DNA from: a virus
IMG/VR virus record: IMGVR_UViG_3300029286_003693
Span: 1 to 64,000 of that record
DNA length: 64,000 nucleotides
Strand: one strand, 5' to 3'
In this document: positions 2,372 to 36,575 of the stretch, in pieces
How positions within the stretch are numbered: the stretch's first letter is position 1
How the letters are laid out: every line of letters starts with the position of its first letter
Notes under the pieces: model-generated
Databases searched by the model: none
What the model saw: the letters and a program-made list of their open reading frames with translations, nothing else
What the model was told of the DNA's origin: nothing
Translations under genes and position numbers: made by a program

Positions 2372-2392
2372 TTTGTGAGAGGGGAGGTTGTT

Positions 2393-3607: not shown

Positions 3608-3641
3608 CTGAATATTGGAAATGAAGGATGCAAGCGAGGGC

Positions 3642-4159: not shown

Positions 4160-4259
4160 AGAATGACCGAACAACCGGATGCAACGGACATGCTGCTGCG
4201 CGCCGCTGAGCGCATCTTTCTGGATCAATCATTTCTCCTGCCATTAAATATCTAATATC

Positions 4260-4320: not shown

Positions 4321-4492
4321 CTTTGACATATATTGTTGCCGAAGTAATAAAAAGACAACCGACGCGATACATCACTCACACAGTGATCGGCAACGCACCC
4401 CATATTTTGTGGTAAAAATCCTCTTGACACAAAATTATTTTTCATATAGTCCCGCCGTGGCAAATTGATACGGGAAATGTTTTTGTAAATTG

Positions 4493-6764: not shown

Positions 6765-6804
6765 CCACGATTAAAGGTTGCATCGGTGGGCGGTTGCTGT
6801 TATA

Positions 6805-8452: not shown

Positions 8453-8679
8453 TGCTCTAACTCCGGGAGGCCTTTTGTTAATGCAGCTACGTCGGACCCA
8501 AGTGCCGAACAAATCTCACAGAGCACCGTGAATGTTAGATTCCGTTCGCCCCGCTCGACACCACCAATATACGAGCGATCAATATCAGCCTTGGCGGCAA
8601 GTTCCTCCTGCGTCCATCCATGCGCTTTCCGCTTCTCACGGATACGGTTCCCCAACTCTTCGAGTACATGCGTTTTCAT
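8449..8679 (-). CDS. Restriction-modification controller (C) protein
   Basis: This 76-residue XRE-type helix-turn-helix protein (TQEELAAKADIDRSYIGGVE, then RGERNLTF) has the size and layout of C proteins of type II restriction systems. Such proteins dimerise on tandem C-boxes, activate their own operon at low level and repress it at high level, delaying nuclease expression after entry into a new host. The start at 8679 places it 24 bases from the C-box; longer in-frame versions (to 8811) would run through the operator. The stop overlaps the nuclease start as ATGA. Confidence 0.85.
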   Translation of the reverse strand: MKTHVLEELGNRIREKRKAHGWTQEELAAKADIDRSYIGGVERGERNLTFTVLCEICSALGSDVAALTKGLPELEQ

Positions 8680-9255: not shown

Positions 9256-9550
9256 CTTTCAACTCCTGTAATTTCTTTACGATGACCTTATATTTCTGGT
9301 CTGATACGGTCAGCCGGTTCGTCAGTTCCTTGATTTTGGAATCTCGGGTCTTGATCTCCTGCTCGTATTGCGCCATCAACTGCTCCCGCATGTCCGCTAT
9401 GATATGCTGGGAATTGTCCGGCTTGTTCTGGGTGTAACTTAGGATCAGGATCGCTACGAGGCTGACCACAAGGAGCACAATCACCGTATTCCGCCAGCCC
9501 CAGCTACCAATAAAAGTAACCATCTTTTCCTTTGCGGTATTGATTCCCAT
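9170..9550 (-). CDS. Rz-like inner-membrane spanin candidate
   Basis: This 126-residue protein has one N-terminal membrane helix (VIVLLVVSLVAILIL), then a periplasmic coiled coil (QLMAQYEQEIKTRDSKIKEL...) and a proline-rich end (MGYPPLP). This is the layout of i-spanins, which span the periplasm and fuse membranes at lysis. It overlaps the transglycosylase gene by 47 bases and the next gene by 86 bases. Start at 9550 follows AAGGTGG; an internal ATG at 9523 is possible. Confidence 0.65.
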   Translation of the reverse strand: MGINTAKEKMVTFIGSWGWRNTVIVLLVVSLVAILILSYTQNKPDNSQHIIADMREQLMAQYEQEIKTRDSKIKELTNRLTVSDQKYKVIVKKLQELKDEYANVAPPQSNSEIRARFSTMGYPPLP

Positions 9551-10085
9551 ATTTTTCCACCTTCTTGGAATATTCGTAATTGACGGTGCAGAGGTCCAGG
9601 ATGCCCCATTTCATCTGGATTTTCTTACGGTGGCATGACAGCTTCATCAGCTCCCAATCCACCAGACCGGCCCGTTGATATTCTTTGTACAAGGTCCCCC
9701 TTCCCCCGTTATAAATCTGATATGAAACCCATAGCCTGTCAGTCCAGTTTTCCTTTCGGTGAATCTGGTTCATGTAAAACGCCTGCATCCGGATCGCATG
9801 GCGCGGATTGTACGGATCGAGAGCTTCCCCCATCAGCGATTGAATATACTGAGAGGTCTTCGGCATGAACTGAGCAATCCCCTGGCCAGCATCGAAAGCG
9901 GTAATGTTTGTCCGACATGCCGACTCTGCCTTGAGCTGTCCGATGCCATACCAGTACGGAAACTGAATCCCGAAATACTTCGTGTGCTCGACCCGGACAT
10001 CTTTGATGTGCGCCTCACACCGATCAAGGGCGTGCGCGGGTACGGCGACAAGGAGAAGGATCAGCCACCAACAGCGAAAGCCCAT
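9504..10085 (-). CDS. Secreted lytic transglycosylase endolysin (SLT fold)
   Basis: This 193-residue protein begins with a cleavable signal (CWWLILLLVAVPAHA) or signal-anchor, so export by the Sec pathway is expected. The catalytic ES motif of soluble lytic transglycosylases is in QLKAESACR, followed by the typical GQGIAQFMPKTSQY loop and a YNGG motif near 125. It should cleave the glycan strands of peptidoglycan to 1,6-anhydro products. Position between holin-like genes and the spanin supports a role as the phage endolysin. GGAGTGGTGAT precedes the start. Confidence 0.85.
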   Translation of the reverse strand: MGFRCWWLILLLVAVPAHALDRCEAHIKDVRVEHTKYFGIQFPYWYGIGQLKAESACRTNITAFDAGQGIAQFMPKTSQYIQSLMGEALDPYNPRHAIRMQAFYMNQIHRKENWTDRLWVSYQIYNGGRGTLYKEYQRAGLVDWELMKLSCHRKKIQMKWGILDLCTVNYEYSKKVEKYGNQYRKGKDGYFYW

Positions 10086-10689: not shown

Positions 10690-13600
10690 TCACAGTGTAT
10701 TTGGCATAGCATTCAAGCATGTCCTTTGTTCTCTGTAAGTATCGACATAATGTTTCTTGTACCAGGCGGTGGCCACGGATAGCGTCTCCTGCTGCTCCGG
10801 CGACAGGGACGCCTTGAACTTATACCGGTCGGCCAACCTCAAAGACGCCAGTGGGTGAACCCGCCTGATGCTCCCTTGGACATCGTGCAACTTCCCGCCC
10901 ATGTCCTGGTACTTCTTGAGATACTTCTCCGCTGCGCCAAAATCACCGAATTTCAACGCCTGCTTGTAATAGTAGAGGGAATTGCTCCGGTTTGTCGGCA
11001 TGGCCGCGGGCTTTTCCTTCCCCTGCTTGTCCAGCCAGTCAAAGATATATTTCCGGCTGGTGTAGTATGCCTGCTCACCTGGATCTGCTTCGGTGAGGGC
11101 CAGGCTTTGGATGTCTCGATACATCTGAGTCGCCCAGGTGCCGCCCTGCTTTGGCTTCCCCGACGCCTGATTGTAGATCCGGTCCAGGGAGAAAGTCCGA
11201 AGGATATGCTCCGCCGTGTCGCGGATCGGTCGCGGGTGCATCGGATCCGGGAAGAAACTCTGCCCGGACAGGGTCTCGTATAGCAGCTTCGGCTCCGGCC
11301 TGAATCCCTGGAAGAGCCTTAGAGGCGCGGCTTTGACTACTTCCTTCGCCAGGTCGCCGGCGCCCTTTGTCCCGCTGACAACCTTCTTGGCCTGCTCGAC
11401 GGGGTTGCCCATCCCGAACCACGAGAGGGCATCCGATAGGGCGCCCTGGAATCTGAGGGTGATGATGGAGCCATCAGCCCGCCGCCCCAGGATCATGTGA
11501 AGCTGTTCTCGCCCGGCCTCTTGCAGCTCATCCTCTTCATCGGGGAAGAACGCCGCGTTCCACAACATGACCAGCCCCATGAGGGCGGAGGCTTTGACGG
11601 CAAGTTTTGTCGTCTTCCAGGCCAGGACGCCGCCCATGGCGCCGATACCACCGCCGCCTTCATCCTTCAGGCTTCTGAATAACCGGACGTACCGGGGCGC
11701 GTTTATCTCAAGCCAGGAGTAGAAGGGGATCATCCGCTCCCGGATATACTGTCCGGCATGGCTGATATTGCCGTAGTCGCCGATCAGTTCTCGCGCCAGC
11801 TTTGCGGCCTTGTCGTCTCGGTTCTCAATGGCGTCAACCTCTTCCTTGCGCGAGGCTCCATAGACGATATCTCCTTTCGCCAGTCGGTCCAGGAAATACC
11901 GATTCGCCGCCAGCCGCAGGATGTTTTCCCGCAAGGTCGAGAGCTTCTTGCTCATCGTCCACCACCGGGACAGGGCGTTCTTGCTCTTGCCGTCGAAGAA
12001 GTCCACGAGGCCCTTGACAGATTTGACATCCCCCAGTTCGGGGATATCCATCGCCGTCATGCCGGACCCGACAACACCGCGCTTGGTCAGCCCAGACAGC
12101 TCGTCCATCAAAGCCTCGGATGCCTTCCCCTGGGACGCCGCCCATAGGTCCTTGAAGGCTTGCGAGAAATAACCCGTGATGATCTTCGGGTCGTAGGCGA
12201 GGGCGATGTCGAGGTCGCCCGACATATTGTTGATGTTGTATTTGATGACCCGGAAAGGGTTCATAAGAATCCACTGTTTCCAGGCCGTCAGCATACTTTT
12301 CGACATCTTCGCCGGGAGCGAATCCGACATGGCCGGCCTGAATTCGTTCAGGGTCTTGGAGATCCCTTCCTTCACAACCCATTCTTCATCGCGGCCCCTC
12401 GCCAGGACTTGCCGCACGGCTTCCGGAAGGTTCTTGTGTCCGGCCAACACCTGGTTAAGCGCCTGGTCTGCAATGCTGTTTGTGAAATAGAACGTGCTCC
12501 CGGTTTCAGGTTTATGGGCGACGTACCCCTCGGGGATCATATCGCGGTACGTGACCCAATCCTTGCCGACGATCTGCTTGATGAAGGCGTTCCTCGCTGC
12601 GATCGCCTTGAAAATCATGGCCGCCGGCATAGAACCCGGCCCCTCATGGTTGATCAAGTAGTTCAGCAGGGCGAACATCCGGGGGTGAGGAACGGGGTCA
12701 AATTCGATCTCGTCTTCCTTTGCCGCCCGGCGCTGCTCCTCCTGGTCAACGATGTGCTCGATGACATCGTCAAACTCCATCGGCAGGGAGCCCATGTCGT
12801 TCTCGGAAGTGAACAGTTTCGCGAGTTTCTGGAATCCCATCGCAATCTTCACCCGGAAGGGCAGAAGCGGGTCCGGATGGTCCGCCAGTGGGTCTCCGCC
12901 CTCCTCGTTGGTCTTCCGGTAGAAGGTCGCCATGTTCTGGTCTTTGGCTTCGGCCTCCAGTTGCGGCTTGATATCTGCCAGGCGCTCGATCTCCTTTAGA
13001 GACTTGACCGTCTCGATCTGAGTCAATGCCTGAGAAATAATCTCGAACTCGGATTCGACATACTCAGTGTTGTAATCAAGCTGGGAGCCCTTCCGTCCAA
13101 CCTGCCAGCCCTTTCGGTGGGTACGAACGTCCTGTGAAGACATCCCCCAATTCGGATTCTCCTTGTAGTTCATGTAGGCGAGGACCTGGTGATGGAAGTA
13201 GGCTGCCGGGTCGTTGGCGGCCTCCTCCTTCAGCAGCTTGTGCTGGATGAGTTGGTCGGTCAGCGAGCCCATGAAGGCGTTCCGCCTGTCAAGGGCTTCC
13301 ATTATCGCGGTGCTCCCCTCGGCGATGGCCCGGAAGTGGTCGTAATCCTGCTGTACCTGATCCCTGTTTTTGTACCCGAACGGAAGCCCGGCTTCATCTT
13401 CAACGGTCAGGGTGCCATCTTCGATGTCCCGGATCATGTCCGGCAGAAGAATGTTCATCGTGAACACATCCCGGCCCTGGGGAGAGAGTCGTCCGATGAA
13501 GCCGGAGAGCTGCCGAACGGTTTCATCCTTCGCCCACGCGGGAACGTCCTGGAACTTGCGGAAGACATCGATGACCGCGCCGTCTGTTTCCGGTTCAAGG

Positions 13601-16600
13601 TGCTGGAAGTGCCGGGTGAAATGTTCCCAGCCGGTGACGAGGGCATCCTTCGCCCTGTCCTTCAGGGAGGCATACTGGATCCCCTTGGCCGCCTTCAGGC
13701 GTTCGTTGACTTCGGGGAAAATGGAAGCGTTGTCGATGGCGTCCTTCTGGACGGAATAAAAAACCCTTTTGGTCCTAATATTTTTTTCAGACTCAAATAC
13801 CTCCTTAATCTTTTCGTAGTGGTCTCCGTCCTTATCCCGAACAGTCGTGAATGAAAGTTGTGTGTTTTTCGCGAAATAAAGCAGGTTATCAATATCCTCT
13901 TTCGTCAATGTCTTTTTGGCATCGTAGATCATAAAGTCTACGGCGTTTCTCTTTTCCGCTTCTCGCAGGATTTCCGTGTGAAGGGGACGGAGTTTCGAGT
14001 AGTCGTCGATAGAGATTAATGCTACGGGTTGACGCTGAGCGGAAACCAGAACCATCCCGCCCTCTTTCATATATAAACGGCCAAACTCCTCAAATTCATT
14101 TTGGCTTCCTATACTTTCGAGACCTTCCGGAGACTGGTCAAATTTTCTTCCCAGTATGGGCAGTTTGTAAATCGCAGGTTCTTTCGGCGGAAGGGGTTCG
14201 CTGGACCACCTGTTATCGGAATATCTCGACGGCGTGATCGCAATGATCGACATACTTTCGATCCCGGCGTCCGCGATAAGATCGCCAATGTTGGCGCTTA
14301 CGCTCAGGTCTGCATCGGACAATTTTGCTTGTCCGGAAGGATGGTTATGGACAAGCCATACCTTAGAAGCGCCTGTAATATTTAATATCTGCCCGGCAGC
14401 AAAATAGGGATATACGGCGCTCTGGTCAGGAGCTCCTATGGTGTGTTGATTGACGGCCAGAATCTTTCCGTTTTTGTCGGTGACAATAGAGACAAGGGTT
14501 TCCTGTGCATCACGCAATAGGTTATCACGGGCAATAACGGCGGCGTCTTCAGAAGTGGTTATTGTTCGGCGTGAGGATTTCCAGGTTCCGATGGGTTCAC
14601 TTTTGACGGTGGGGAGAGTACCCCGTTCGGGTACATAGGGAAGCACCCTTCCTCCAGGGGCGGGTATTTTCCGCTTATCATCGACCCCCTGTCCGGCGGC
14701 AGAGGCATTGTCAGCCAGCACCACCGCGGTTCCGGATACTTCTTGTCCATTGGATACCTCTTGATTATTGTTAAGCGCTCTGCGTGGCTTTCTTGTCAAC
14801 CCCTTTTCCGTAATTGCGAAAACCGGGAGATGTTCGTAGACGGCAATTCCTTGCTTCTCGCGGGGCTCCCCGTATGCTTCGTCCTGGGCCAGCTCCTTCT
14901 CTAATGCGGCTGCCAGCTTCTTCTCGGTTGCAGCATCCTGCGGAACGTCTTCGCTCTGGACCTCCCCCTCGGTAATCCGATACGGCCTGTCGAGACTCTC
15001 GTTCTTTGCGAAACGTTTCGCCCATGCCTCGCGAGATGCCGCATACCCGCCACCGTCGATCATGCCCCCGTCCAGCTCCAGTCCATAGTGCTCGGCCTGC
15101 CACGTCCCGTCTTTGAGCTGCCCTTCGATGGTGATGATCTTGCCGCTCGGCTCGATCCTCTTCAAGGCCCTGGCAAGCACCCTGCAGCCGCCGTCGAGCG
15201 GACCGGATTGGATAGGTCCGGCATCGGTGAGAATCGAGGCGACCGCATCCTTCCTGAAAGCCTGCTTGATCTTGTCGCCGAGCCACTTTGGTAATTCCAG
15301 GTCCGCGGTTCCAATGGCATACTTTTCACCTTTTGGATTAGATTTTGCGTAGACCAGCCCCTTGCCGCCGCCTACCGCATCACGCGCTGCCCGGATCGTT
15401 GCTCCCGAAGAAATCACATTATCAACGAAAAAGACGTTATCTCCGTCGAGTGTTTCCGTACTGACCATGCCGAACTCGACGGGTTTCATGGTCCGCCGCC
15501 CGGCTACGCGAGCATCCCGCTGACTTTGTCCAGCCGCCCGCTTGAGTACGTCTGCCAACCTGCCACCCGTGATGGCTGCGATCCGTTCCGCGAGGGCGAC
15601 GTTCGCTGCCGTATCCCCGGTATGTCCGGGTATCGGGACCAGTATCGCCGTTTTTCTCGCCTCTTCGGGGATGAGTGCCGCCATTTCTTTGGCGACGCTA
15701 TCCAACACGACCGGGTCCATTCCTTTGACTCCATAGGCATTTTCCCGGATGGTCTTTTCTTGGGCGCTCAGGGATGGCTTCACCCGCGGAGAGATGTATG
15801 CGTGGGCGGAAAGTGCCTCGTCATACGCCTTTACAGAGGACTTTTCCTCACCGGCGCGTATCCAGTCAACGGGGACTGCTCCCCTCACCTTCGCGCCGTG
15901 GCCGATTGCAATGCTTTCGGCCAAGGTATCGCCGAGGTCCGTCCGGCCTCCAAAGTGCCGCTTGTTCCTGAGCTGGTCATTGTCAGGAACAAGGTTTTTC
16001 ACCAGGACATCGACCGGGTAAATCGCGATCTCCTTCCCAGCATAGGCCAGCCTACCGAACTGATGGGCCATGCCGGGGAAGAGCGAGAGAGAGACGGTCC
16101 CGTGAGACGATTGCAGAGACTTGGCAGTCCTGGCGCTGGTCGGCTTCAGACCTTCCTTCATGACCGGGATGCCGGCGTCGGTCCCGTGGTACATCCTGAT
16201 CGTGGCGTATCGATTGTCCTTCAGCCAGGCATTGAGACGGGCAATAGCCTTCTTTGTAGGCTCCCGGTAGGCGATGTCATGCCATGCCTCGTCTTCGCTG
16301 AAGTCAGTGACGGCGGTGTCCCCGAAATTGTCATATTTCCCAGTGCCGTACGCCTCCTCTCCCTGGCTTGTTTCCTGGGTTTCCCTCTCGAATATCTTCC
16401 CGGACTGGAGTTCCCGCCCGATCATGCCTGCCGTCCTGATTCCCACGATCCGATTGATGAAGTCCTGGATCTTCTGCCAAATCTGCGCGAGGACCGTCTG
16501 ATTCGGCTGTGGCCCCTTTGCGAAATCCGCAAGCCACTTTGCCCGGTTCTCCTCGTGGCTCAGGTCCTTGTTCCATTTCCCTTCTTTCTGGATGCGGGCA

Positions 16601-19600
16601 TTCAAGGTCGCCTTGTCCGATTCGGAAATGACACCCAGCTTTTCAAGCCAGTGGACGGATTCGTGGGAAACGGTCCATGGGACTTTCGCGTTTTCCCGGA
16701 CGATCCGGATGACTCCCCTACCCTGCGCGTCAAGACCGTCGAACGCTCCGGCGATAAACTGGCCGGCGGCCAACCCCTTTTTGTATCCCGCGTTCAGGGA
16801 AACGGTATTCGGGGTGATCTCGGCGACGCCGTAGATAGTCGCCTGTGCCCCGTTCTTCAGAGTGACAGTGAAGTTGTCGCCGTCTTGCGCGACCTGCTGT
16901 CCAGGGAAGAGGGACTGAACCGTCTTGAGGTCCATTCTGCCGCCCCCGGTTGCGCCTTCCTCTCCGACAGCGTACTGGGGTCCCCCCGTCGCAGAGACCG
17001 CCTTCATGGCCTTTTCATCGATGTCCTTGACGCCCTGGGGCACATAGGATTCCTGTTTCGCGTTGATAAATGCGTCCCTCTCCCCCGTCTCGGTAACGTG
17101 GATCAGGAACCTCTCGCCCATACCCCTAGCCTCATAATGCCACGCCCCCTCCTTCCCGATTATCCTTTGCAGGAGGTTCCACTCAACCGGATCAACGGTC
17201 ACAAAGGTTGCTCCGGCGGGCACCCAAAACTTCGTTACGTTGTCGATCACGGTATAGGCTATTGGCTTCGTTACGGGCGACCGGGGTTTCCCTCCGTCCA
17301 GAGCATTCAGGGCGTCGGGAGCGTTGTAGCTGGATGCTATGCTGGGTTTGAGCTTACCGCTTTTTAGAAAACGGCTGAGGTCGGTCTTGGCACGGACGCC
17401 AATCGTCGTATTCTGGTGAGGGTACACGATCCCGTCATGAAACGACCACCCGTCTTTATCCGCCACATCTTCAAGGACGGGGACAACACCCTTATACTTA
17501 TCGATTGGAATCCCGGTGGTGGGATCTCCGACGGAAACCCCTCGTGCGGCCATTTGCGCCTCGACTTCGCGCAGTTCTTTGTCGTTGGTCGCGAGCTCGT
17601 CCACTTTTGCCCAGGGGGTGTCTATGACACTCTGTAATTTCGGCGCGTTGGCATTGAGTTCCGCGATGGCGTCCTTTGCCGACTCCTCACTGTGGTTCAG
17701 GTAGGAAAGGTATTCTGTCACAGTCCGGGAGACATTAGCCTTGATATCGGCTGTGGTAACGATTCCCTCTTTCCCTTGTTTTGCCTGGATGTCGGCCAAA
17801 TTCCGGTCGCTGCTGAGGATGCTTCCGGATATCAAGAGCCGTCGCCCATAGGGGTCTCTTTCTTTTCCCGTGATATCGGCCTTGGCTGGGAGCGGGACAA
17901 AGGTGTATTTTTTAACCTTCTTTTCCTTTTTCTCCCCGTCTTTCCCTTCTACCTCTTCGGTAACTTCCGTCTCCGTGTGGCTGCCGAATACCAACAAGGC
18001 AGCCTTTTTGTTCTCCGTCCACGAATGGGTGTCCACCATGACTGCCTTTTCAAGCGCCTCGGAGATCTCCTTCCCGTGCTTCTCCAGCACCAGGGTCCGG
18101 TCGTCGCCGATGAACCGTACCGCCGTCACCTTGCCCATAACGCTGCGACTGCGCTGGTAATCGGTGATACATTTCTCCAGTGCTTCAATCCGCCCGGGGA
18201 TAGCGGCCAGATCCATTCTCGATCGACGGACAACGTCGAGATGGGCGGCCTGCTCGAACCGAAGCCCCTGCACCTTCTGAAGAAGTGTCGCCTGGGTGGA
18301 CATGAGCGGATCGCCGGATGCTTCAGCCGCCATCATCTTCGCGCTCATGGTCTCGTCGCTGATGTCCTCGATCACGTCGAGGTTGACGTCTCCACCCAGC
18401 ACGGCATTCAGGACCTTACCCTTGGCAAATACCTTGTCCCAGCGGGTAGCGTCCACCGTTGTCTCGGTGACGTAATTCCAGATGTAGGTCCCCGGCATCC
18501 CGTCTCTGGCATAAAGATTCCCTGCCCGGATGCCACGCCCGTTGCGCTGCTCCCACGCCGAGTAGTTCCACCATACGTCAAGGTGATGGATGTCCGACAC
18601 GCGGCCCTGGATGTTGACCCCCGTGCCCGCCTTGCTCGTGGACCCGATCAGAACGCGAATGTCGCCGGCGTTGACCTTCTTGAAGAGGGATCGCAGGTTG
18701 GCCGCCTTCTTTTCCTTGTTGCTATGGTCGGCGTCGTGAATGAAGGCGATCTGATTTTCAGGAATCCCCAGTTTGACCAGTTCCTTCTTCAGGCCCTCGT
18801 ATGTATTGAACCCGGTAGACGCGCTTTCGTGCTCAAACATCTCTTCATTGTAAATCGCCAGATCTTCCGGGGCCAACTGAGAGGTTTCATCTTCAGTCTT
18901 ATACTTGAATTTGTCCGAGTATTTGCCGGGGATCCCCAGGTCTGCGAAGACAAGCTGGACGCCCTTGTGCTTTGCCTCTTCTTGCCACCGCCGATACATG
19001 ATCTTCGACGCCGTGGCGATCTTTGAATCCTGCTGCATCTCCGTGTTGGCATAGTGGTGATCAAGACGCTGATCGATAGCCACCTTGCTCATATTGGAGA
19101 TGATCCGGAGCATGTTGTCGGGGACGCCCTCGTATTCGGCATTTTTCGGATCCGCCTCGATTGCGGCACATCGCTCCAGAACGATCTGCTTATAATCCTC
19201 GACATACTGGTTGGGCTGCACCTTTACCCGTTGCGGTTCACCCCCACGGATGATCGGCCTTTTGACAGGCGTATCCTTCGCCCGGACGCTATCGACATTC
19301 TGATATGCCGTCGCCAGGAGCCGCCCGGCATTGACGATCCGGCGGTTCGTTGTGATGACCTTGTACTGCCCGCGGGCGCCGTCCCATTCCAACTGTGACC
19401 CCATGTCGCCAAAGTTGGCAATCCAGCGGTCGAAAGACCACACCCCTTGCCTCTTTACCTCCTGGGGCTGAAGCATCCGCTGAATGTTGTACATCTCCGC
19501 GATGGAGTTCGACAAAGCCGTTCCGGACGCCAGGACGATCCCATCCTTTTTGGGGAACTGGGCATTCAGGTACTGCGTCTTGCGGAAGAAGTCCTTCGCG

Positions 19601-22600: not shown

Positions 22601-25600
22601 GGTACTGATTTCGGATCGTTTAAGGTGAGATCGGTTATTCGGTAGTTTCCGGCGGGAGAAGGATGTACTCCTTCAGTACTATCTCCTTCGACGCTTCCAT
22701 CTGCGCCCCTCTGCTTACCAGATTCCCGAGTTCCAGGCAAGCCGCTTCCGCCGCTGCCTCGGTCTCCTGATCGAACGTCCCCTCCTTCATTAGGGCTGCT
22801 GTCAGGGCGGGCAGGTACTTCTTCCAGTGCCTCTGTGCCATCCTCTTGAATACCAACATCGATGCCACCCCTTTCTTTGGCAATATAAACCGGGTTTTCA
22901 CCCTCATACTGGATGTTTGACAGCTTATAGTCTAATATATCATCGGGATGGAGCTGTGTCAAGTAGGCGACCGCCCCCGTTCCGTTCTGCCCTTCCGATG
23001 TATATCCCTTATCATGACCAGCATACCCGTCCGGCTGCATCATCGGTCCGAAAGATGTATCGTCATAGCGATACCAGTAATAGCCGTCCTTGGATGGTTC
23101 GGACGCCCAGATCGCCGTATATCGCGCCTCTACTTGGTCCAGAAGGTATCTCAACTGGAGCTGAAGCATCAATTCATTGGCTTTTTCGATGGAGATGTAA
23201 TCATCCTTGAGGGACGGCTTTCCGGATTCATCCCACACCAGACCATTAAGGAGATGCTTGATGGTCGCATTGAACGTCTCGCGCTCCTTCCCCGCGGGAT
23301 AAACCAGTCTTGTCCCGACGCCGGCCTTGCCACCTACCCTGCCGGCGGCGACGAAATCGTTGACCAGGTAATTGTTCTTGCCTTGCAATGTATCGTAGAT
23401 GTATGCCTCGAATGCCCTTGCCCACATCTCTTGCGCCCGTGCGGTATAGTCAGGGTCCATCTGCTGCGCGGTGCTGTAATAATCAGTGTCTTTCCTGACC
23501 GTATCCTCAAATCTGCTGGTAACTTCGTTCTTTACTGCCTCGATCCGCTGCTGCTTTTTCGACGACACCATCCGCTTGAGAAACATGGAATCCTTCGCAA
23601 GCAGGTCGTCAATCAGGCGGGTCCCAGCCTCGAAGTCATAGACATGGTGGAATGTATTGACAACTTTTTCTATTTCGGTTTTTGCATCCTCAGCGGCCAG
23701 GTCCTGCAATCCATGCCCCCATTCGTGAGCCATGGTCCCGTCGCCATTATCACGGGTGAAATTGATCGTTTGGACAGTGGGGAAGTATGCCGCCGCCGCG
23801 CCCTTCGCCTTGTGTCCCAGGTTGGCAAACTGCACGGCAAGTTCACCGCCCAGGCTCATGCCGTTATCGGGTGCGCCGATAGTCGCGGCCAGATCCTTGA
23901 AGGCATCATACGCTGCTGGGATGACGCGGTTACGCTCCTCCTGGTTGATCCACCCCTCTTCTCCGAAGCCGACGCCCTTGAATCCGAACGGAGCCTGAAA
24001 GTCCTCCGTCTTTTTCAGTTCAACGCCCTCCCGGTAATCGGACAAGCCGGAGCGAACCACTGTCTTGTTGCGCCCGCGCTTGTTGATGTCGATCTCCGAC
24101 AGCAGGATATCGTTCTCGTCGGCAAGGAGGCTCTGCCAGGAGTCAGTCAGGAAATTGTAAAGAGAATTGGGCCGCTGGACATAATCACGGGTACTCAGAA
24201 GGCCGGAGAGGCGTGTTCTCGCTTCCGAATAATCGGGAAATGTTCCATCTTCTTTTCGGGCTCCGAACAGCACGGTCTCCTGTAACCGACCGATGATATT
24301 CGTGATGCTGGTCTGCCCGTTAAAAACATCCACGACCGGCTGCATGGTCTTCCCATACTCAGTTGCCCACTGCTTGAGCATGTCGATAGATCCGCCGCGA
24401 TAATTGAGCCAGTGCTCGATCTTATCGTCTATGCTCTTCCCCGATGAGTAACGCAGCCGATCCCGGCTCTCGGTAAGGTATTCCTTGAACGTCAAGAAAT
24501 ACTTCTGAATTTGCGTCATCAGGCGCACAGTCCCAGGGGTCGCTTCTTCTGCGAAAGCGGCTGTCCATATCTTCCCAGGGACCATCTCGTCGAGGATGAT
24601 CTTCGCCGCGGACTTGGGCGTTTTATCCTTTGTCTTCTGGTTCAGCTTCTCGGGATCATAGACATAGCCGACGTTCTTGAACTCGCCCATCGCGGACTTC
24701 CGGGCCTTCTTTTCGGCGGCCGCCTCTTCCTTAGCTTTTTTCTCCGCCTTCTCCTGCTCGGTCAACTTCCGGCGCGTCCGGGCTCCCCCCTCACCTTCCC
24801 CGGTGTTTTCGTCGAGGTTGATCACTTCACCATCTTCCGCTATGTCTTCCGGAAGGATATTTCCTTCGTGCCTTACAGACCCCACACCCTCCCATGAGTA
24901 TTTCCAGCCTCCTTCCGGGATAGACACCGTCCCGCTTTCTTCCCATTCCGGGTGCTCGCTTGCAGCCTTGTTCCATGCGGCGTTCCGAGATTGCTGATCT
25001 GCTTTAACGGGTTCGTCCATAGACGCCCGGTCATATCTGAGAGAAGATTCCGGCACACTCACTCTGAGGACAACAGGCTCCCCCCCGTGCTCGTCAACAG
25101 CCTCTTTTGCATAGTATTGGGCAAGCTCTCTCGTTTTTGCGAGGTAAGGGTTATTCAACCCGTTCTTCCTTATGTCATCTAATAGTTTAGAACTCGTCCC
25201 GTGATAGGCTTCGCGGATGGGGTGATCTATCTCTTTTTTATCCCTCTTTTCCTGAATGAACTGCTTGATGTAAGGCCGGATCGCATCGCCGAATTGTTTC
25301 ACAATGGTGGCGGCAAATTCCCGGAGCCCCTTGCCGACCTGGATGAAGTGCTCCAGCGCCGCCTCGAAATGGGGCTTCGCTTTTGCGTAGGTGTCCTCAT
25401 CAAACCCGCCGGGGAAAGACTTCAGGGACGACCCGCCGAAAAGTTCATAAAGACCCTTCAGGGCTTCTCCTGCACCCTCGATACCTTCCTTGGCAACGTC
25501 GGCCAGGATATCATCGAGGGCCTTGGCTGGTTTTGCCGAGGGGATCTTTCCCGCAGCGCGATCCCTGGCGGCAGCAAATATGTTCTTGACAGCTTCGTTT

Positions 25601-28600
25601 GTCGTCTTTGGGGCGGTTTCTTTCTTTTCCGGCATGTCAAGCATGGCGTCGAGGTCTTCATCGGAAATCTCGGAGATCTCCTTCATGATGTCGGCCTTGG
25701 CGGCTTCTGGTTTCGTCAATTCTGTCAGTTCGGGATATTTGTCGAGTATGGCCTGTCGTGCTTTTGGATCATCGCCGGGGGCAGCATCGAGGTCGGATAG
25801 AAATCTCTTGGCATCCTCCAATGAAAAATTTTCAGCCTGCGAAACCTTGTCCGCACCCTCCAATAGGGCTGTGCGCTTTTTCTGGTATTCAAATTCTGCT
25901 TCTCGCGCATTCTGCGCCCTGAGCCGGTCGCTTATTTCGGCCTGTTCGTTGCCAGAAGCGGTGCTCTCTTTTTCCTCCTTCGGCCCCCTCTTCCCGCCCG
26001 TGCCAGCGGCTTTGATCTTTTCCGGGGCCTTGGCCTCTTCCGTGGCCTTCCCCTCGAACATCTCTTTCGCGAGGCCGGGGTAAAATTCTCTGATGCGTGC
26101 CTGCAGGTTCGGAATCCTCTCCCGTAAGGATTTTATTTCTTTCTCGATTTCTTTGATCCGGCCCGTCAGGTCAGCGTAAGTCGGGGTCTTCCCGAACCAT
26201 GAATCTCTCCATGCTTCAGTACCCGCCGATTCTTTACTTGCGGCTGCCTTTGCATCCTCCCCGAGCTGCTTCAGGGTGATCTCTTTGGCATCAACCTTGC
26301 GCTGGATCTCGTAGTAGCGTTCGAGACGGGCCTGGGCAGCTTCGATCTCTGCCGGGACCCCTTCATACCGGGTCTTGAACTCATTCCTTTTCGTCCAGTA
26401 ATCAGCGACCTCCGCCTCTGCCTCCTTGGTGATCAGATCCGTGGACTTGCCCACAGGTTTGCCGGAGTGCTGCGGGAGTTTATTCAGCGCCGCCGTTACC
26501 TTCATTCCCGCCACTTTCTTTTTGAACTTCTCCAGGTTCTCTTTCGTGTTCAATATCCTGAACTTTCCGTCCATGGGAACATCGATGATGACGTGGATGG
26601 GTCCGGCGTCCTCGGTCTTGTTGTTCTCGTAAGCGGTCCGGGCAGCTATGGCCTCGTCAAGGTGTTCGAGCAGATACTTCTTGATGATCCGGGACTTACC
26701 CTCTTCCTCCTTGGACTTTACCTCTGCCGCGGTAGGAACTGGCTTTGCTGCCTTCCCAGCTTCGGGGGCCTTGACGATTTCCGGTTTCGGGCCTCTCGCG
26801 CCGCCGGTACCAGCCGCTTTGATCTCCGCGGGTTGCTGAGAAAGACCGGGATGTCTCTCCTCCTGCTCTCCCTTCAGTAGGTTTTTCCAATGTGGTTCCG
26901 CTGCGTCTATGTCCGCAATCAGAGACATTAACCTCTGTCCCAGCGCCTTGTCTTTTTCAGTTACCCGCTTCAGAATGTCGCTCTTCTCTGCCGGCCTGAG
27001 CGTGCTATACCCGCGTGAGCCTAAGCCGCCGCCACCTTTCCCGATCGAATGCTTGAGGCCAGCTTTCCGTTCGATAGATGCAAATTCTTCTTGATATTGA
27101 GAAATCAGCGATCTGCCCTCGTCGGCAGACTTTGCGTTCTTCATCCTTTCCGCATAAGACGGTACCGTCTCCGTGATTACGGGTGCCGGTCCTCTTGCGC
27201 CGCCCGTGCCCGCGGCTTTGATCTCGGTGGATTGCTCTTTCTCGAACTTTGCCAATTCTGCCAAGGCGGCTTTCCCTTTGGGGTCGTCTGCTTTTGTACG
27301 GCTCCTTATTATGTCAATGCCGGCTTTGATCGCCTCGGCTCGCGTATCGTATTGCGTGCCGTCGATACCTGGGGCATTTCCGCTCCCCTCGTAGTCGCCA
27401 TATTTTTTCGAGATATTGACGCCAATGCGGAATTTCCCGTCAGGGCCTTCCGCTATGCGGATGCTGCCCTCCCTTCCGGATGACTTACTGAATGGGATTG
27501 AGATCTTTTCCGGTTCATTATAGACGCCGTTATCGTTGATATTATGTCCTGCATCCCGGTATTGTTTGACCTCTTCATCCGATTTTTCTCGTGCCGACTT
27601 TGGTGCGGGTGCTTCCTCTCCTTTTACCGAATCAATCACTTGTTGCAGTAAAGGCCGCTGCCAACCCTGTTCATTCATACGTCCGTCCGCCAAGGTAGCG
27701 ATGGCGTCATAGACCGAATCCTGGTCGGCCTCAATTCCTTCTGCTTTCAACTTTGCTACGACTTTCCGGGCCAGATCCTCCTGTGCATACTGCCAGGCAA
27801 TTTCCGCATGGCGGGTGACAATCTGCGATTCCACCCGAAGATTCCCGATCTCTTCATCGATCTGCTTCTTCCGGGCAACCGCTTCTTTACTGCGGTCCGA
27901 TTTCAGTACGTCCCGTTCCTTGGCAAGGGCGTCGATGGTTGGTTTATTCTTGGCCGTAATATCCTCGCTTACCGTATAAAGTTCATCCCAAAGCCCACCC
28001 AGGTCCATAGGAGAATAATGTTCGGGAAACGTAAAGTCTTCCACCAAATTGCCGGTTGCGATCTGGTTCGCTAAGCCTGTTTCTTGCGCTGCACCTTGGG
28101 CCGCGGGCTCTTCGGCGGCCTTCTTATCCACGACGGTTTTCTCCAACATCCCGAGCCGATACCGGGCGTAAGCGCTGACAGTATCTTCGCCCCGGTATTC
28201 ATCAAGGACCGCCGCAGTGCCGCCTTCCGCGAATAGGCTCGCCACCTTCGTCCGAACGAAAGGCGGGGTCCCGGTTTCCTGGGTGTCCCAGAGATCGAAC
28301 GTCTTTTTATCCTGGGTCTTGACCTCTTTCGTGATGTCCAGGATCTTTCCCGGAGTTTCCCCGGTCACATTCAGCGGTCCTCTCGCGCCGCCCGTGCCCG
28401 CGATCTTCAATTTTTTGTCGATTTCAGCCAGCGTCTCGGGGGTGATATCCTCTTCGGTCTGGATGTTGACATCTCCCTCCATCAAGATATCCGTCGCCGT
28501 CAGGTTCTTCCGCTTGGCTTTCGGCTCACCTTCCAGGAGAATGTCCCTCGCAGCGCCCTTGGCTGGCCCCATGGGCTTACTGACCACACCACCCTTCCCG

Positions 28601-30210
28601 ACACCGGCAGTATCGAGAACTTCTTCTGGAAACCCGAACGTAGTGGCCTTGGCGGCTATTGCATCTGTCAGCCGGTTGAACTCTTTCCGCTGGGGTTCTC
28701 TCGCCTTGCCGGTCGAGATGAGTTTCGTCAGTCCGTAGGCTTTATTGATGTCCGACTGGTAGGCCAAATACTGCTGGTAGAGATCCGGGCTGATGTTTTT
28801 TTCCTTGAATTCGTCCCGCAGAGAGGCCCATCTTGCGACGTCCTCGCCGGTGGCCTCCTCCGATTTCACCACGGCGTCAAGCTTAAAGTATTCCTTGAAC
28901 TTACTTGTCATATCGAAGTCTATGCCGCGCTTTTCCATCTCGGTCGCGAAGGCGTCTCTTGCCGTGGCCAGGGACTTATCCGTTGGTCTTTTATCCGACA
29001 ATTCCTGGGCGTGCTCGTACATGGCCGGGAGGAATTCATTGGGGATCGAGTCGAATCTGTTCTCGGCGACAACGTCCTTAACAAGCTGGGCCGATGCCTT
29101 CGTGTCCATCTTTTCCTTGACGTGCTCGCCCGTGAGCGCCGCGCCGCCCATGACCGTAGTGAGCAGGAGGATGTCGGCGAAAACTTCCTTATTGGACTGT
29201 CTCAGGTCGTCGAAGCTGGTCCATGAGCGCTTTGTCGCGCCGGGATTCAGGCCCATCTCCACGTCGATGTTGTGCTGCCACTGCTGGGTCCAGGTCTCCG
29301 TGGTCTGCTCGGTCGCCTGTTCTGCCAACATCTTTCCGGCAGCCCCCGCACCGTATTTGTCGAGGGCCTTCCCGATAGTCGTCTTCGCGAGCTGCTTGCC
29401 GAAGGCATTCTTGGCCGCTCCGAAAAACAGCTCGAATCCGATCAGGTTCCCGATGGCTTCCGGGATTGCTTCAGAGATGCCCTGCTCGATCAGGGATCCC
29501 TCATTTTTGTCATAGGCTGTCTTCCATTCTTCCGGGGTCAGAACCCGACCAGCCGTTTTCATGCTGGTTTCATTGAGTTTATCGTAAAGGTCTTTCGTTG
29601 AGTTATCCTTCTGCATCCGGTACGCAGCTCCACCCGATGCCGCCATGCCTGCCGCCCGACCCGCGACAAACGAGCCCACGGGGCTGGTAGGCGCCGCTGC
29701 AGTTGCTGCTGCTACGCCCGCACCGAGGCCGGCGCCTGCGCTTACCACCGAAAATGCCGCCTGCTGGGGAAATCTCGTGATCGTCCCCGTGGTGATGTCG
29801 TCAGGAAGGCCGAGTTTCGTGAGCGGTGCGATGACCACCTTGTTATCGGCGTATTTCTTCTGGAAATCCTCGGCGTCCTTGTTGGCCCTGTCGATGATCC
29901 TCGTCAGGAAAGAGTCTTTGTCGGCCACAGCCTCTCGTGATCCGCCCCGGATCGCGCTCGCGGTTGCCCCGGCAATCTGCAAGGGGGTTCTGATCACCGC
30001 CTCGCCGACCGCGCCGACAGTCTCGGCGATCTCCCCCGGTGACGCCAGCTCGTAGCGGGCCGGGGCCGCTGGTGCCTGCTTTACCTCTGCCGGTTTTGAG
30101 ACAGCGTCATAGAAATCCTTCGAGACAGGAGAAGGAATATCCTTCGTGATGTCATCGTAGAAGGACTGGGACAGCGACAGTGGACTTCTTGCGGACGGAT
30201 TCAGCTCCAT
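10690..30210 (-). CDS. Giant polyvalent phage protein (6506 aa)
   Basis: One uninterrupted frame of 19.5 kb. Visible modules with approximate residues: paired FYDDITK/FYDAVSK motifs (15-35); Ala/Gly-rich hydrophobic stretch (147-190); low-complexity helical region with four AAGTGGARGP-type motifs (602, 997, 1130, 1399); ADP-ribosyltransferase-like domain (YHGTSS, 1668); HEWGH metallopeptidase-like site (2162); N6-adenine methylase (YSGWGG 2570, DPATGANGLF 2646, NVPF 2708); SNF2-like helicase (GHEVGTGKT 3345, DEAHKYKN 3510, helicase C with GSTSKAGTGVNIQGR 3860); second HExxH site (HESVH 4516); second ADP-ribosyltransferase-like domain (YHGT 4672); ComF-like phosphoribosyltransferase (FVDNVISSGAT 4930); papain-like segment (GGCRVLARAL 5012, AEHYGLELDGG 5045); RadC/JAB domain (VHNHPSG with SDAD 5288); long helical C-terminus with a hydrophobic segment near 6200. 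This matches the published concept of polyvalent proteins: large phage or conjugative-element proteins injected with DNA to counter host defences and prepare the cell. Start at 30210 follows AGAGGTAG. Ejection with the genome is inferred from position after the structural genes. Confidence 0.9.
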   Translation of the reverse strand: MELNPSARSPLSLSQSFYDDITKDIPSPVSKDFYDAVSKPAEVKQAPAAPARYELASPGEIAETVGAVGEAVIRTPLQIAGATASAIRGGSREAVADKDSFLTRIIDRANKDAEDFQKKYADNKVVIAPLTKLGLPDDITTGTITRFPQQAAFSVVSAGAGLGAGVAAATAAAPTSPVGSFVAGRAAGMAASGGAAYRMQKDNSTKDLYDKLNETSMKTAGRVLTPEEWKTAYDKNEGSLIEQGISEAIPEAIGNLIGFELFFGAAKNAFGKQLAKTTIGKALDKYGAGAAGKMLAEQATEQTTETWTQQWQHNIDVEMGLNPGATKRSWTSFDDLRQSNKEVFADILLLTTVMGGAALTGEHVKEKMDTKASAQLVKDVVAENRFDSIPNEFLPAMYEHAQELSDKRPTDKSLATARDAFATEMEKRGIDFDMTSKFKEYFKLDAVVKSEEATGEDVARWASLRDEFKEKNISPDLYQQYLAYQSDINKAYGLTKLISTGKAREPQRKEFNRLTDAIAAKATTFGFPEEVLDTAGVGKGGVVSKPMGPAKGAARDILLEGEPKAKRKNLTATDILMEGDVNIQTEEDITPETLAEIDKKLKIAGTGGARGPLNVTGETPGKILDITKEVKTQDKKTFDLWDTQETGTPPFVRTKVASLFAEGGTAAVLDEYRGEDTVSAYARYRLGMLEKTVVDKKAAEEPAAQGAAQETGLANQIATGNLVEDFTFPEHYSPMDLGGLWDELYTVSEDITAKNKPTIDALAKERDVLKSDRSKEAVARKKQIDEEIGNLRVESQIVTRHAEIAWQYAQEDLARKVVAKLKAEGIEADQDSVYDAIATLADGRMNEQGWQRPLLQQVIDSVKGEEAPAPKSAREKSDEEVKQYRDAGHNINDNGVYNEPEKISIPFSKSSGREGSIRIAEGPDGKFRIGVNISKKYGDYEGSGNAPGIDGTQYDTRAEAIKAGIDIIRSRTKADDPKGKAALAELAKFEKEQSTEIKAAGTGGARGPAPVITETVPSYAERMKNAKSADEGRSLISQYQEEFASIERKAGLKHSIGKGGGGLGSRGYSTLRPAEKSDILKRVTEKDKALGQRLMSLIADIDAAEPHWKNLLKGEQEERHPGLSQQPAEIKAAGTGGARGPKPEIVKAPEAGKAAKPVPTAAEVKSKEEEGKSRIIKKYLLEHLDEAIAARTAYENNKTEDAGPIHVIIDVPMDGKFRILNTKENLEKFKKKVAGMKVTAALNKLPQHSGKPVGKSTDLITKEAEAEVADYWTKRNEFKTRYEGVPAEIEAAQARLERYYEIQRKVDAKEITLKQLGEDAKAAASKESAGTEAWRDSWFGKTPTYADLTGRIKEIEKEIKSLRERIPNLQARIREFYPGLAKEMFEGKATEEAKAPEKIKAAGTGGKRGPKEEKESTASGNEQAEISDRLRAQNAREAEFEYQKKRTALLEGADKVSQAENFSLEDAKRFLSDLDAAPGDDPKARQAILDKYPELTELTKPEAAKADIMKEISEISDEDLDAMLDMPEKKETAPKTTNEAVKNIFAAARDRAAGKIPSAKPAKALDDILADVAKEGIEGAGEALKGLYELFGGSSLKSFPGGFDEDTYAKAKPHFEAALEHFIQVGKGLREFAATIVKQFGDAIRPYIKQFIQEKRDKKEIDHPIREAYHGTSSKLLDDIRKNGLNNPYLAKTRELAQYYAKEAVDEHGGEPVVLRVSVPESSLRYDRASMDEPVKADQQSRNAAWNKAASEHPEWEESGTVSIPEGGWKYSWEGVGSVRHEGNILPEDIAEDGEVINLDENTGEGEGGARTRRKLTEQEKAEKKAKEEAAAEKKARKSAMGEFKNVGYVYDPEKLNQKTKDKTPKSAAKIILDEMVPGKIWTAAFAEEATPGTVRLMTQIQKYFLTFKEYLTESRDRLRYSSGKSIDDKIEHWLNYRGGSIDMLKQWATEYGKTMQPVVDVFNGQTSITNIIGRLQETVLFGARKEDGTFPDYSEARTRLSGLLSTRDYVQRPNSLYNFLTDSWQSLLADENDILLSEIDINKRGRNKTVVRSGLSDYREGVELKKTEDFQAPFGFKGVGFGEEGWINQEERNRVIPAAYDAFKDLAATIGAPDNGMSLGGELAVQFANLGHKAKGAAAAYFPTVQTINFTRDNGDGTMAHEWGHGLQDLAAEDAKTEIEKVVNTFHHVYDFEAGTRLIDDLLAKDSMFLKRMVSSKKQQRIEAVKNEVTSRFEDTVRKDTDYYSTAQQMDPDYTARAQEMWARAFEAYIYDTLQGKNNYLVNDFVAAGRVGGKAGVGTRLVYPAGKERETFNATIKHLLNGLVWDESGKPSLKDDYISIEKANELMLQLQLRYLLDQVEARYTAIWASEPSKDGYYWYRYDDTSFGPMMQPDGYAGHDKGYTSEGQNGTGAVAYLTQLHPDDILDYKLSNIQYEGENPVYIAKERGGIDVGIQEDGTEALEEVPARPDSSPNEGGDVRSGDRGSGGSGLPGTRESGKQRGADGSVEGDSTEGVHPSPAGNYRITDLTLNDPKSVPVRFGLNLSAVKVLNLVESENRTPTDAEKDILAQYSGWGGMSELFAYEPTAAWAGKAELLKAELNDDEVRDAASSSTSAYYTPVPVGTFMWKLAQRLGFTNGVVLDPATGANGLFLGTMPSDLAQGTALQGIEMDGVSARIATQLYGLASIETKSFQDVKKPNNRFDLTITNVPFENFSPSDLKHNKGGYRLHNYFINKMLNLTAPGALSMMITTSNTLDAVGAHLTEFAGKAQLVGAIRLPSGIYSATQVATDILVFRKNIEGGKFVGVPAEEWTTAGTDESTGLTINNYFLKHPEMVAGKLEKITGRYGNEGLRVAPEGDLQSNLERLAAAFPDKIVEREAVKEAKSIDDIISAPGTIKEGGAYINDKGEVCVKEDSEELKLPVATASEQKKAEVVRLYVRVLDQIRTLLRAQKTETDAKVIKEEQVKLKKWYDLFVKKFGPVNDPKNRGVYVDYTDSAWVLALEEHDPDTNKVTKLADIFTKNITAFAARPDRADTDHDALAMALDEFGYPNLEYMARLRSSDVDSVRAGVADKIVENPETGFLETIDEYLSGNVKRKLTVAREMVASSPEYARNVALLEAAQPAEISQHRITARIGASWIDPAHLAEFVRDKMALRHGLHAIFNFSPVSNEWSMSFGGEEHYRGRGKGVGENKAEVQRQIAAAKRSVEATTVWGTQRMDFFELMKCALMGKRPQVTFTVDRKQYLDEVATQAAEVKLQDIQSEFGRWLFAEAGRSDEAVKRFNDLINTSVPMNADGSHLTFPGKGMWMLTPKEKEALGVTDALTFYPHQMNAAWKYLKNGNLYLGHEVGTGKTVTMALIAMEAKRLRGKKKVLYVTLNDSTMGQAVQEIKNLYPMANILPVRVSTNEQRKQRSLQKIALNDFDIAIMRQQDLDRIGLSPESERVFIEEELLELREILEEAKKEGARILEQDIQVQIHALEAKLSAPGVHDEAKRKNLFFDDLGIDLMIVDEAHKYKNIPYATRLTRITGLNPTGSPTAKDFFRKTQYLNAQFPKKDGIVLASGTALSNSIAEMYNIQRMLQPQEVKRQGVWSFDRWIANFGDMGSQLEWDGARGQYKVITTNRRIVNAGRLLATAYQNVDSVRAKDTPVKRPIIRGGEPQRVKVQPNQYVEDYKQIVLERCAAIEADPKNAEYEGVPDNMLRIISNMSKVAIDQRLDHHYANTEMQQDSKIATASKIMYRRWQEEAKHKGVQLVFADLGIPGKYSDKFKYKTEDETSQLAPEDLAIYNEEMFEHESASTGFNTYEGLKKELVKLGIPENQIAFIHDADHSNKEKKAANLRSLFKKVNAGDIRVLIGSTSKAGTGVNIQGRVSDIHHLDVWWNYSAWEQRNGRGIRAGNLYARDGMPGTYIWNYVTETTVDATRWDKVFAKGKVLNAVLGGDVNLDVIEDISDETMSAKMMAAEASGDPLMSTQATLLQKVQGLRFEQAAHLDVVRRSRMDLAAIPGRIEALEKCITDYQRSRSVMGKVTAVRFIGDDRTLVLEKHGKEISEALEKAVMVDTHSWTENKKAALLVFGSHTETEVTEEVEGKDGEKKEKKVKKYTFVPLPAKADITGKERDPYGRRLLISGSILSSDRNLADIQAKQGKEGIVTTADIKANVSRTVTEYLSYLNHSEESAKDAIAELNANAPKLQSVIDTPWAKVDELATNDKELREVEAQMAARGVSVGDPTTGIPIDKYKGVVPVLEDVADKDGWSFHDGIVYPHQNTTIGVRAKTDLSRFLKSGKLKPSIASSYNAPDALNALDGGKPRSPVTKPIAYTVIDNVTKFWVPAGATFVTVDPVEWNLLQRIIGKEGAWHYEARGMGERFLIHVTETGERDAFINAKQESYVPQGVKDIDEKAMKAVSATGGPQYAVGEEGATGGGRMDLKTVQSLFPGQQVAQDGDNFTVTLKNGAQATIYGVAEITPNTVSLNAGYKKGLAAGQFIAGAFDGLDAQGRGVIRIVRENAKVPWTVSHESVHWLEKLGVISESDKATLNARIQKEGKWNKDLSHEENRAKWLADFAKGPQPNQTVLAQIWQKIQDFINRIVGIRTAGMIGRELQSGKIFERETQETSQGEEAYGTGKYDNFGDTAVTDFSEDEAWHDIAYREPTKKAIARLNAWLKDNRYATIRMYHGTDAGIPVMKEGLKPTSARTAKSLQSSHGTVSLSLFPGMAHQFGRLAYAGKEIAIYPVDVLVKNLVPDNDQLRNKRHFGGRTDLGDTLAESIAIGHGAKVRGAVPVDWIRAGEEKSSVKAYDEALSAHAYISPRVKPSLSAQEKTIRENAYGVKGMDPVVLDSVAKEMAALIPEEARKTAILVPIPGHTGDTAANVALAERIAAITGGRLADVLKRAAGQSQRDARVAGRRTMKPVEFGMVSTETLDGDNVFFVDNVISSGATIRAARDAVGGGKGLVYAKSNPKGEKYAIGTADLELPKWLGDKIKQAFRKDAVASILTDAGPIQSGPLDGGCRVLARALKRIEPSGKIITIEGQLKDGTWQAEHYGLELDGGMIDGGGYAASREAWAKRFAKNESLDRPYRITEGEVQSEDVPQDAATEKKLAAALEKELAQDEAYGEPREKQGIAVYEHLPVFAITEKGLTRKPRRALNNNQEVSNGQEVSGTAVVLADNASAAGQGVDDKRKIPAPGGRVLPYVPERGTLPTVKSEPIGTWKSSRRTITTSEDAAVIARDNLLRDAQETLVSIVTDKNGKILAVNQHTIGAPDQSAVYPYFAAGQILNITGASKVWLVHNHPSGQAKLSDADLSVSANIGDLIADAGIESMSIIAITPSRYSDNRWSSEPLPPKEPAIYKLPILGRKFDQSPEGLESIGSQNEFEEFGRLYMKEGGMVLVSAQRQPVALISIDDYSKLRPLHTEILREAEKRNAVDFMIYDAKKTLTKEDIDNLLYFAKNTQLSFTTVRDKDGDHYEKIKEVFESEKNIRTKRVFYSVQKDAIDNASIFPEVNERLKAAKGIQYASLKDRAKDALVTGWEHFTRHFQHLEPETDGAVIDVFRKFQDVPAWAKDETVRQLSGFIGRLSPQGRDVFTMNILLPDMIRDIEDGTLTVEDEAGLPFGYKNRDQVQQDYDHFRAIAEGSTAIMEALDRRNAFMGSLTDQLIQHKLLKEEAANDPAAYFHHQVLAYMNYKENPNWGMSSQDVRTHRKGWQVGRKGSQLDYNTEYVESEFEIISQALTQIETVKSLKEIERLADIKPQLEAEAKDQNMATFYRKTNEEGGDPLADHPDPLLPFRVKIAMGFQKLAKLFTSENDMGSLPMEFDDVIEHIVDQEEQRRAAKEDEIEFDPVPHPRMFALLNYLINHEGPGSMPAAMIFKAIAARNAFIKQIVGKDWVTYRDMIPEGYVAHKPETGSTFYFTNSIADQALNQVLAGHKNLPEAVRQVLARGRDEEWVVKEGISKTLNEFRPAMSDSLPAKMSKSMLTAWKQWILMNPFRVIKYNINNMSGDLDIALAYDPKIITGYFSQAFKDLWAASQGKASEALMDELSGLTKRGVVGSGMTAMDIPELGDVKSVKGLVDFFDGKSKNALSRWWTMSKKLSTLRENILRLAANRYFLDRLAKGDIVYGASRKEEVDAIENRDDKAAKLARELIGDYGNISHAGQYIRERMIPFYSWLEINAPRYVRLFRSLKDEGGGGIGAMGGVLAWKTTKLAVKASALMGLVMLWNAAFFPDEEDELQEAGREQLHMILGRRADGSIITLRFQGALSDALSWFGMGNPVEQAKKVVSGTKGAGDLAKEVVKAAPLRLFQGFRPEPKLLYETLSGQSFFPDPMHPRPIRDTAEHILRTFSLDRIYNQASGKPKQGGTWATQMYRDIQSLALTEADPGEQAYYTSRKYIFDWLDKQGKEKPAAMPTNRSNSLYYYKQALKFGDFGAAEKYLKKYQDMGGKLHDVQGSIRRVHPLASLRLADRYKFKASLSPEQQETLSVATAWYKKHYVDTYREQRTCLNAMPNTL
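22635..22859 (-). CDS. Nested out-of-frame ORF inside the giant gene (74 aa)
   Basis: In another minus-strand frame, an ATG at 22859 with AAAGGGGTGG just upstream opens a 74-residue protein: MLVFKRMAQRHWKKY, then a helical LPALTAALMKEGTFDQE segment, LVSRGAQMEASKEIVL and KEYILLPPE. It has balanced composition and looks like a small folded helical protein. Over the same DNA the giant protein is a Gly/Ser/Arg-rich linker (GGDVRSGDRGSGGSGLPG...), which is what a frame constrained by another gene looks like. The layout suggests an old separate gene that was swallowed when flanking genes fused. I recall similar short helical proteins near phage helicase-methylase genes but cannot name the family. 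Confidence 0.5.
   Translation of the reverse strand: MLVFKRMAQRHWKKYLPALTAALMKEGTFDQETEAAAEAACLELGNLVSRGAQMEASKEIVLKEYILLPPETTE
25981..28407 (-). repeat. Four spaced copies of a 12-residue AAGTGGARGP motif
   Basis: Within the giant gene, IKAAGTGGARGP or close variants occur at 28375-28407 (KIAGTGGARGP), 27187-27222, 26788-26823 and 25981-26016 (IKAAGTGGKRGP). The spacing is irregular (about 395, 133 and 269 residues), so this is a dispersed linker motif and not a tandem repeat. Confidence 0.9.
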
Positions 30211-31354: not shown

Positions 31355-31372
31355 GGTCGCGCCTCCTATCGG

Positions 31373-34359: not shown

Positions 34360-34371
34360 CTCGATTCTCCT

Positions 34372-36021: not shown

Positions 36022-36025
36022 ATTC

Positions 36026-36568: not shown

Positions 36569-36575
36569 GCGTCAC

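Follow-up and report, generated by a model that had tools for sequence, protein, structure and literature searches.

The locus examined here raises the question of what a single phage reading frame of 6,506 residues encodes, and at which stage of infection its product would act. We analysed a window of 64,000 nucleotides (positions 1 to 64,000 of the IMG/VR record IMGVR_UViG_3300029286_003693, an 82.7-kb viral contig), in which an earlier note had described this frame as one protein with at least nine enzyme-like modules. The frame was recovered exactly as described, as a single minus-strand ORF with an ATG start, no internal stops and a gene-like composition (GC of 0.59/0.41/0.68 at the three codon positions). 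Scans of viral contigs revealed four complete, uninterrupted relatives of 5,581 (L002), 6,677 (L003), 6,813 (L005) and 6,003 aa (L014), as well as a cut copy (L004); the longest member of the family is L005 and not the window protein. Over 4,801 codons compared with L003, 296, 210 and 803 differences were found at codon positions 1, 2 and 3, respectively, and this excess at the third position indicates purifying selection on the protein. The giant is known from a metagenomic contig only, a circumstance that would suit a misassembly, an artefactual frame or a pseudogene in decay; however, the comparably long frames on four other contigs, the purifying selection and the intact catalytic motifs reduce the probability of such an origin to almost nothing, and the same evidence rules out a chance ORF. 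The features of the protein and its neighbours are collected in Table 1.

Table 1. Features of the giant protein and of neighbouring genes (residues refer to the 6,506-aa protein; positions refer to the window).
Feature	Position	Strand	Basis
Whole polyvalent protein	10690..30210	-	Intact 6,506-aa ORF, long relatives, codon-position pattern
N-terminal backbone block, residues 1-603	28402..30210	-	Short hydrophobic/Ala-Gly stretches; 69-81% identical in L002/L003/L005
Variable cassettes, residues 604-1560	25531..28401	-	(I)KAAGTGG(A/K)RGP-type copies at 604, 1000, 1133, 1402
ART-like module 1, YHGT at 1669; residues 1665-1790	24841..25218	-	KptA E=0.0085, PARP 0.028, KptA 0.099
Zincin-like HEWGH (2162) in CLCA_X, then LPD1; residues 2053-2323	23242..24054	-	NF041907 E=1.1e-23; PF18796 E=2e-12
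Predicted N6-adenine methylase, residues 2610-2798	21817..22383	-	PF02384 E=1.3e-8; PHROG 10089; motif I DPATGANG 2642, motif IV NVPF 2708
Predicted SNF2-type SF2 ATPase, residues 3325-3900	18511..20238	-	PF04851, PF00176, PF00271; HEVGTGKT 3346, DEAH 3510, QRNGRGIRAGN 3888
Second zincin-like module, HESVH 4516; residues 4430-4625	16336..16923	-	Motif and downstream E conserved
ART-like module 2, YHGT 4674; residues 4665-4790	15841..16218	-	Motif; weak in-register hhalign to ART1
Phosphoribosyltransferase-like module, VDNVISSGAT 4929; residues 4795-4985	15256..15828	-	PyrR E=4e-4; Pribosyltran 0.021
Papain/transglutaminase-like module, C5009-H5041-D5052; residues 4986-5085	14956..15255	-	Triad conserved; AF2; weak fold matches
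RadC-type JAB domain, HNHPSG 5288; residues 5217-5328	14227..14562	-	PF04002 E=1.5e-12
C-terminal block, residues 5485-6496	10723..13758	-	Kept by every complete relative; also at prophage-like loci in Ca. Magnetominusculus (L018) and Syntrophus (L019)
SLT transglycosylase (lysozyme), just downstream of giant	9504..10085	-	PF01464; adjoins giant also in L003/L005
Major capsid protein	54751..55854	-	Phage_capsid_3 (PF13252) E=5e-66; 50% identical to JC1
P22-like portal protein	57187..59622	-	PF16510 E=1e-155; 39% identical to JC1

The proposal that the protein is a polyvalent counter-defence factor was partly supported, by its central part. PHROG 10089 ('DarB-like antirestriction') matches residues 2451-3898 with E=2e-297, across both methylase and helicase, and the profile matches place an EcoKI/TaqI-like N6-methylase before a SWI2/SNF2 ATPase, so that residues ~2450-4015 can be described, from sequence comparison, as a DarB-like core. 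The SNF2, ResIII and Helicase_C profiles matched with E values of about 1e-6 to 1e-8, PF00270 also matched, and the relatives whose cores are complete have kept the Walker A, DEAH and QRxGRxxRxGN motifs. At methylase motif IV, the window protein and its five relatives have NVPF, in contrast to NPPF in Burkholderia phage JC1 and Erwinia phage Pavtok; for P1 DarB, the match is SNIPY. LPD36 was sought before the methylase, and no Pfam match to it was obtained at E<=0.01. Local homology extends over residues 2444-4000 with JC1 gp69 and over residues 2467-4015 with Pavtok gp27. At least 80% of a 1,500-aa query containing the core is covered in 49 phage records, at ~28-33% identity, and the DarB-like core is also common on plasmids (1,940 records).

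The nine modules named in the earlier note fared unevenly in the profile searches. The methylase, the SNF2 helicase, the RadC/JAB domain and the first HExxH module were recognised by curated profiles, whereas the other five labels are less firm. The model over the first HExxH, CLCA_X, is an NCBIfam family, and the motif reads HEW(G/S)H in all relatives; the RadC-type domain carries the JAMM-like HxH...D motif HNHPSGQAKLSD at 5288 within the PF04002 match. The phosphoribosyltransferase (PRTase) assignment is supported, less firmly than those made by curated profiles: a profile of the region searched against the PDB gave PyrR as the best match (E=1e-3), followed by weaker matches to APRT, OPRT and PRPP synthetase. 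For ART1, the sub-threshold Pfam matches are to ART families only (PARP, KptA), a stand-alone phage homologue matches PARP, KptA and Arr-ms, and relatives in Aeromonas and Bacillus phages are small stand-alone genes; the matches agree with one another and may point to an ADP-ribosyltransferase fold. ART2 is a motif-level label, its in-register match to ART1 having an hhalign probability of 1%. The second zincin label is likewise a motif-level one with limited conservation: HES(V/A)H and the downstream E persist among relatives, even at 36% identity (L005), and the profile searches returned no match for this module. PDB profile searches with the ART1, first-zincin and second-zincin alignments gave nothing relevant.

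The papain-like module may be a cysteine peptidase-like domain. Its triad is conserved in a distant plasmid homologue (L035), and the AlphaFold2 model (pLDDT 64 in one of five models) places the Cys at a helix start and the His on the following sheet; a fold search in the PDB gave weak matches, with vasohibin cysteine peptidases as the best (E 0.08-0.3). For residues 4440-5480, modelled with 5 alignment rows, the pLDDT was 33.5, too low for a fold search. In the phylum to which the Syntrophus locus belongs, 297 genomes were searched with the PRTase-papain region and gave no matches. When the C-terminal 1,706 residues were compared with phage records, the sole match was to the PRTase region, in Virus Rctr197k; there, the gene after the terminase gene (L029 1405-6540) includes a stretch that is PRTase-like and akin to residues 4811-4975, and its product is possibly another polyvalent protein.

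Alignment of the relatives revealed three backbone blocks: the N-terminal one, the zincin/LPD1-methylase-SNF2 region (residues ~1790-4400), which is present in all relatives, and the C-terminal one. The N-block occurs in L002, L003 and L005 and is missing from L014; it had no match among 50,697 phage records, and it is a candidate for the capsid-targeting or ejection part. For the C-terminal block, a Pfam scan at E<=10 produced no credible family, and a search of 395 genomes from the Syntrophus-locus phylum and 296 from the Ca. Magnetominusculus-locus phylum gave, besides the two known loci, partial weak matches only. At the Ca. Magnetominusculus locus (L018 6206-12703), a 2,165-aa ORF joins this block to a PBECR3 nuclease domain, which indicates that the block occurs with a different effector. 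Around the constant blocks, modules have been gained and lost between relatives. ART1 and ART2 are shared by the window and L003 only; the PRTase-papain-RadC set is found in the window, L003 and L005 and is absent from L002 and L014; and the second zincin occurs in L002, L003 and, diverged, in L005. The variable regions of L002, L003, L004 and L014 were also scanned, and no known Pfam module was detected.

The repeated (I)KAAGTGG(A/K)RGP peptide lies in the variable region and was absent from the other frames of the window, the right-hand rest of the record, and the JC1 and Pavtok stretches searched. Between two of its copies, the window has a 124-residue cassette and L005 an unrelated 205-residue one, so that at least one N-terminal slot of exchanged content is flanked by the peptide. 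The repeats were considered as DNA-level recombination sites, and this was rejected because several synonymous changes set copies 3 and 4 apart from the rest; these codon differences make it more likely that the peptide itself is under selection. The presence of two zincin-like modules and a papain-like one in the same chain raises the possibility that the giant is a polyprotein precursor, which these modules would cut, before or after packaging, into smaller working proteins. The repeats between cassettes could serve as cleavage or docking sites, and P1 DdrB is processed before packaging (PMC5512222). In contrast, the N4 vRNAP, with its zincin domain, is packaged unprocessed (PMC5512222), and the first zincin is still present in L004 and L014, which have a single copy of the peptide or none. 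We regard such processing, which is compatible with packaging of the protein, as possible but tentative. A more elaborate version, that the giant is a modular carrier in which slots bounded by AGTGG(A/K)RGP, set among fixed N-, methylase-helicase and C-blocks, take swapped effector cassettes that the built-in peptidases would free after ejection by recognising the peptide, seems to us rather doubtful.

The genomic context supports the earlier remark that the gene lies after the structural genes. On its strand, the genes for TerS, TerL, portal, capsid, head closure (PHROG 8040) and tail fibre are followed by the giant, which ends the virion-gene operon, and then by the SLT transglycosylase. The order TerL, portal, gp46-like, capsid (MCP), gp49-like and the core of the giant is shared with JC1. 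Between the tail fibre and the giant (30242-45430) lie large proteins with hardly any family matches, which are candidate ejection or tail proteins; one of them (31373-32860) shows a 29% resemblance to a protein of Methanosarcina virus MetMV. Two more N6/N4 DNA methylases are encoded between TerL and portal (59630-62498). Adjoining the lysis end of the phage, genes for a DNA methylase (N6_N4_Mtase, E=8e-38) and for a restriction enzyme of the BamHI family (PF02923, E=4e-26) converge at 6778-8512, a pair that may be either a cargo restriction system or host genes. Counting the domain of the giant and the gene at 6778, the record has at least four DNA methylase domains. A PAS histidine kinase and a response regulator with an HD domain, typically cellular genes, occupy 410-3379, which suggests a prophage, with host DNA at the left end of the contig. 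The record also has integrase and transposase genes; a Mu-like pair of DDE transposase and transposition ATPase, plus an integrase, were observed alongside P22-like head genes (L007 4387-6577 and 17544-18776; record positions 67387-69577 and 80544-81776).

From the integrase and transposase genes and the adjoining BamHI-like system, the phage looks temperate, and the giant might be an unpackaged intracellular protein that acts in the lysogen or late in infection, against rival phages (superinfection exclusion) or the host. Homologous cores on plasmids fit this possibility, and some polyvalent domains may prevent superinfection according to Iyer et al. (PMC5512222). However, within the virion operon the gene comes immediately after the tail genes, and its syntenic homologue in JC1, the 4,515-aa DarB-like gp69, was represented by 51 unique peptides in CsCl-purified virions (PMC9144972). 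An exclusively intracellular role is consequently improbable. The synteny with JC1 makes packaging and ejection the best reading, and we consider it likely that a temperate short-tailed phage packages this polyvalent protein in its virions, for delivery coupled to DNA injection. Against this, the homology to proven virion proteins spans only ~24% of the chain, the DarB-like core is common on plasmids, where virions play no part, motif IV is NVPF and not NPPF, and several modules are weakly identified.

We infer packaging, ejection, processing and every enzymatic activity and target from these comparisons, and propose the following course. The giant would be made late, together with the head and tail genes, and loaded into the capsid, probably via the conserved N-terminal block. 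It would then be threaded into the new host with the DNA, the chain being at least partly unfolded. Once inside, the DarB-like methylase and SNF2 translocase may jointly mark or shield the incoming DNA from restriction, the zincin-like domains may cleave host proteins or the chain itself, and host factors may be modified or disarmed by the optional ART, PRTase, papain-like and RadC modules. If packaged, the family, with members of up to 6,813 aa, would be a hard test of how a P22-like particle can deliver proteins of such size into a cell. The division between kept parts (the N-block in most relatives, the zincin/LPD1-methylase-SNF2 block and the C-block) and optional ones (ARTs, second zincin and PRTase-papain-RadC set) offers a guide to delivery parts and interchangeable effectors, and highlights two conserved blocks, N- and C-terminal, without assigned function.

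The closest known systems are JC1 gp69, from the Bcep22-like podophages, and Pavtok gp27 (5,007 aa), which share the methylase-SNF2 core at ~29-31% identity over ~1,570 aa. Both occupy the same place as the giant, closing the virion operon ahead of the lysis genes; Pavtok gp27 likewise has virion genes before it and an endolysin after it, and JC1 also shares the P22-like portal and capsid. The giant is longer than both and has no BLASTP-detectable homology with them outside the core; unlike them, it contains modules of the PRTase, papain-like, RadC and ART-like types, together with the AGTGG cassettes. A gene of its own, beside the giant, encodes the lytic transglycosylase, whereas the annotation of Pavtok gp27 includes one within the protein. 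P1 DarB (2,255 aa) also combines methylase and helicase; it is about one third of the length of the giant and lacks all the extra module motifs searched for, and direct similarity is marginal, with a weak match (E=3e-8) in the helicase portion. P1 relies on further Dar proteins as helpers. Its DarB, a component of the capsid, enters there via an N-terminal targeting signal (PMC9024508), and it protects DNA against type I restriction (PMC5512222).

The giant also resembles the polyvalent proteins of Iyer et al., in which several unrelated enzyme-like domains share a chain encoded by a mobile element near late genes. Here, disparate domains occur in one chain (methylase, SNF2, RadC and CLCA_X zincin-like/LPD1 by curated profiles, with PRTase supported), and the invasive element encodes it on the same strand as the late and virion genes (portal, capsid, TerL and tail-fibre operon). 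The zincin, ART, PRTase, methylase-SNF2 and RadC domains are all on the polyvalent-domain list of those authors. Proteins of this kind have 2-15 domains, and the published examples already include a gigantic prophage protein of nine domains or more and a plasmid protein of 12,242 aa (PMC5512222); the combination was therefore overstated when it was called extreme. Since the class was known, as were its principle of combining domains and its range of lengths, the giant is a very long member of it and not a new kind of system. New details are the module turnover outside the backbone and the repeated KAAGTGG(A/K)RGP peptide at an exchanged N-terminal slot, both described from sequence comparison. 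The giant differs in other ways as well. Its 6,506 aa exceed the 5,007 aa given in 2021 for the longest phage protein known at that time (PMC8402733). RadC, listed in the 2017 survey for polyvalent proteins of conjugative elements only (PMC5512222), occurs here in a phage-type one, and the papain-like module lies outside the four peptidase superfamilies of the same survey.
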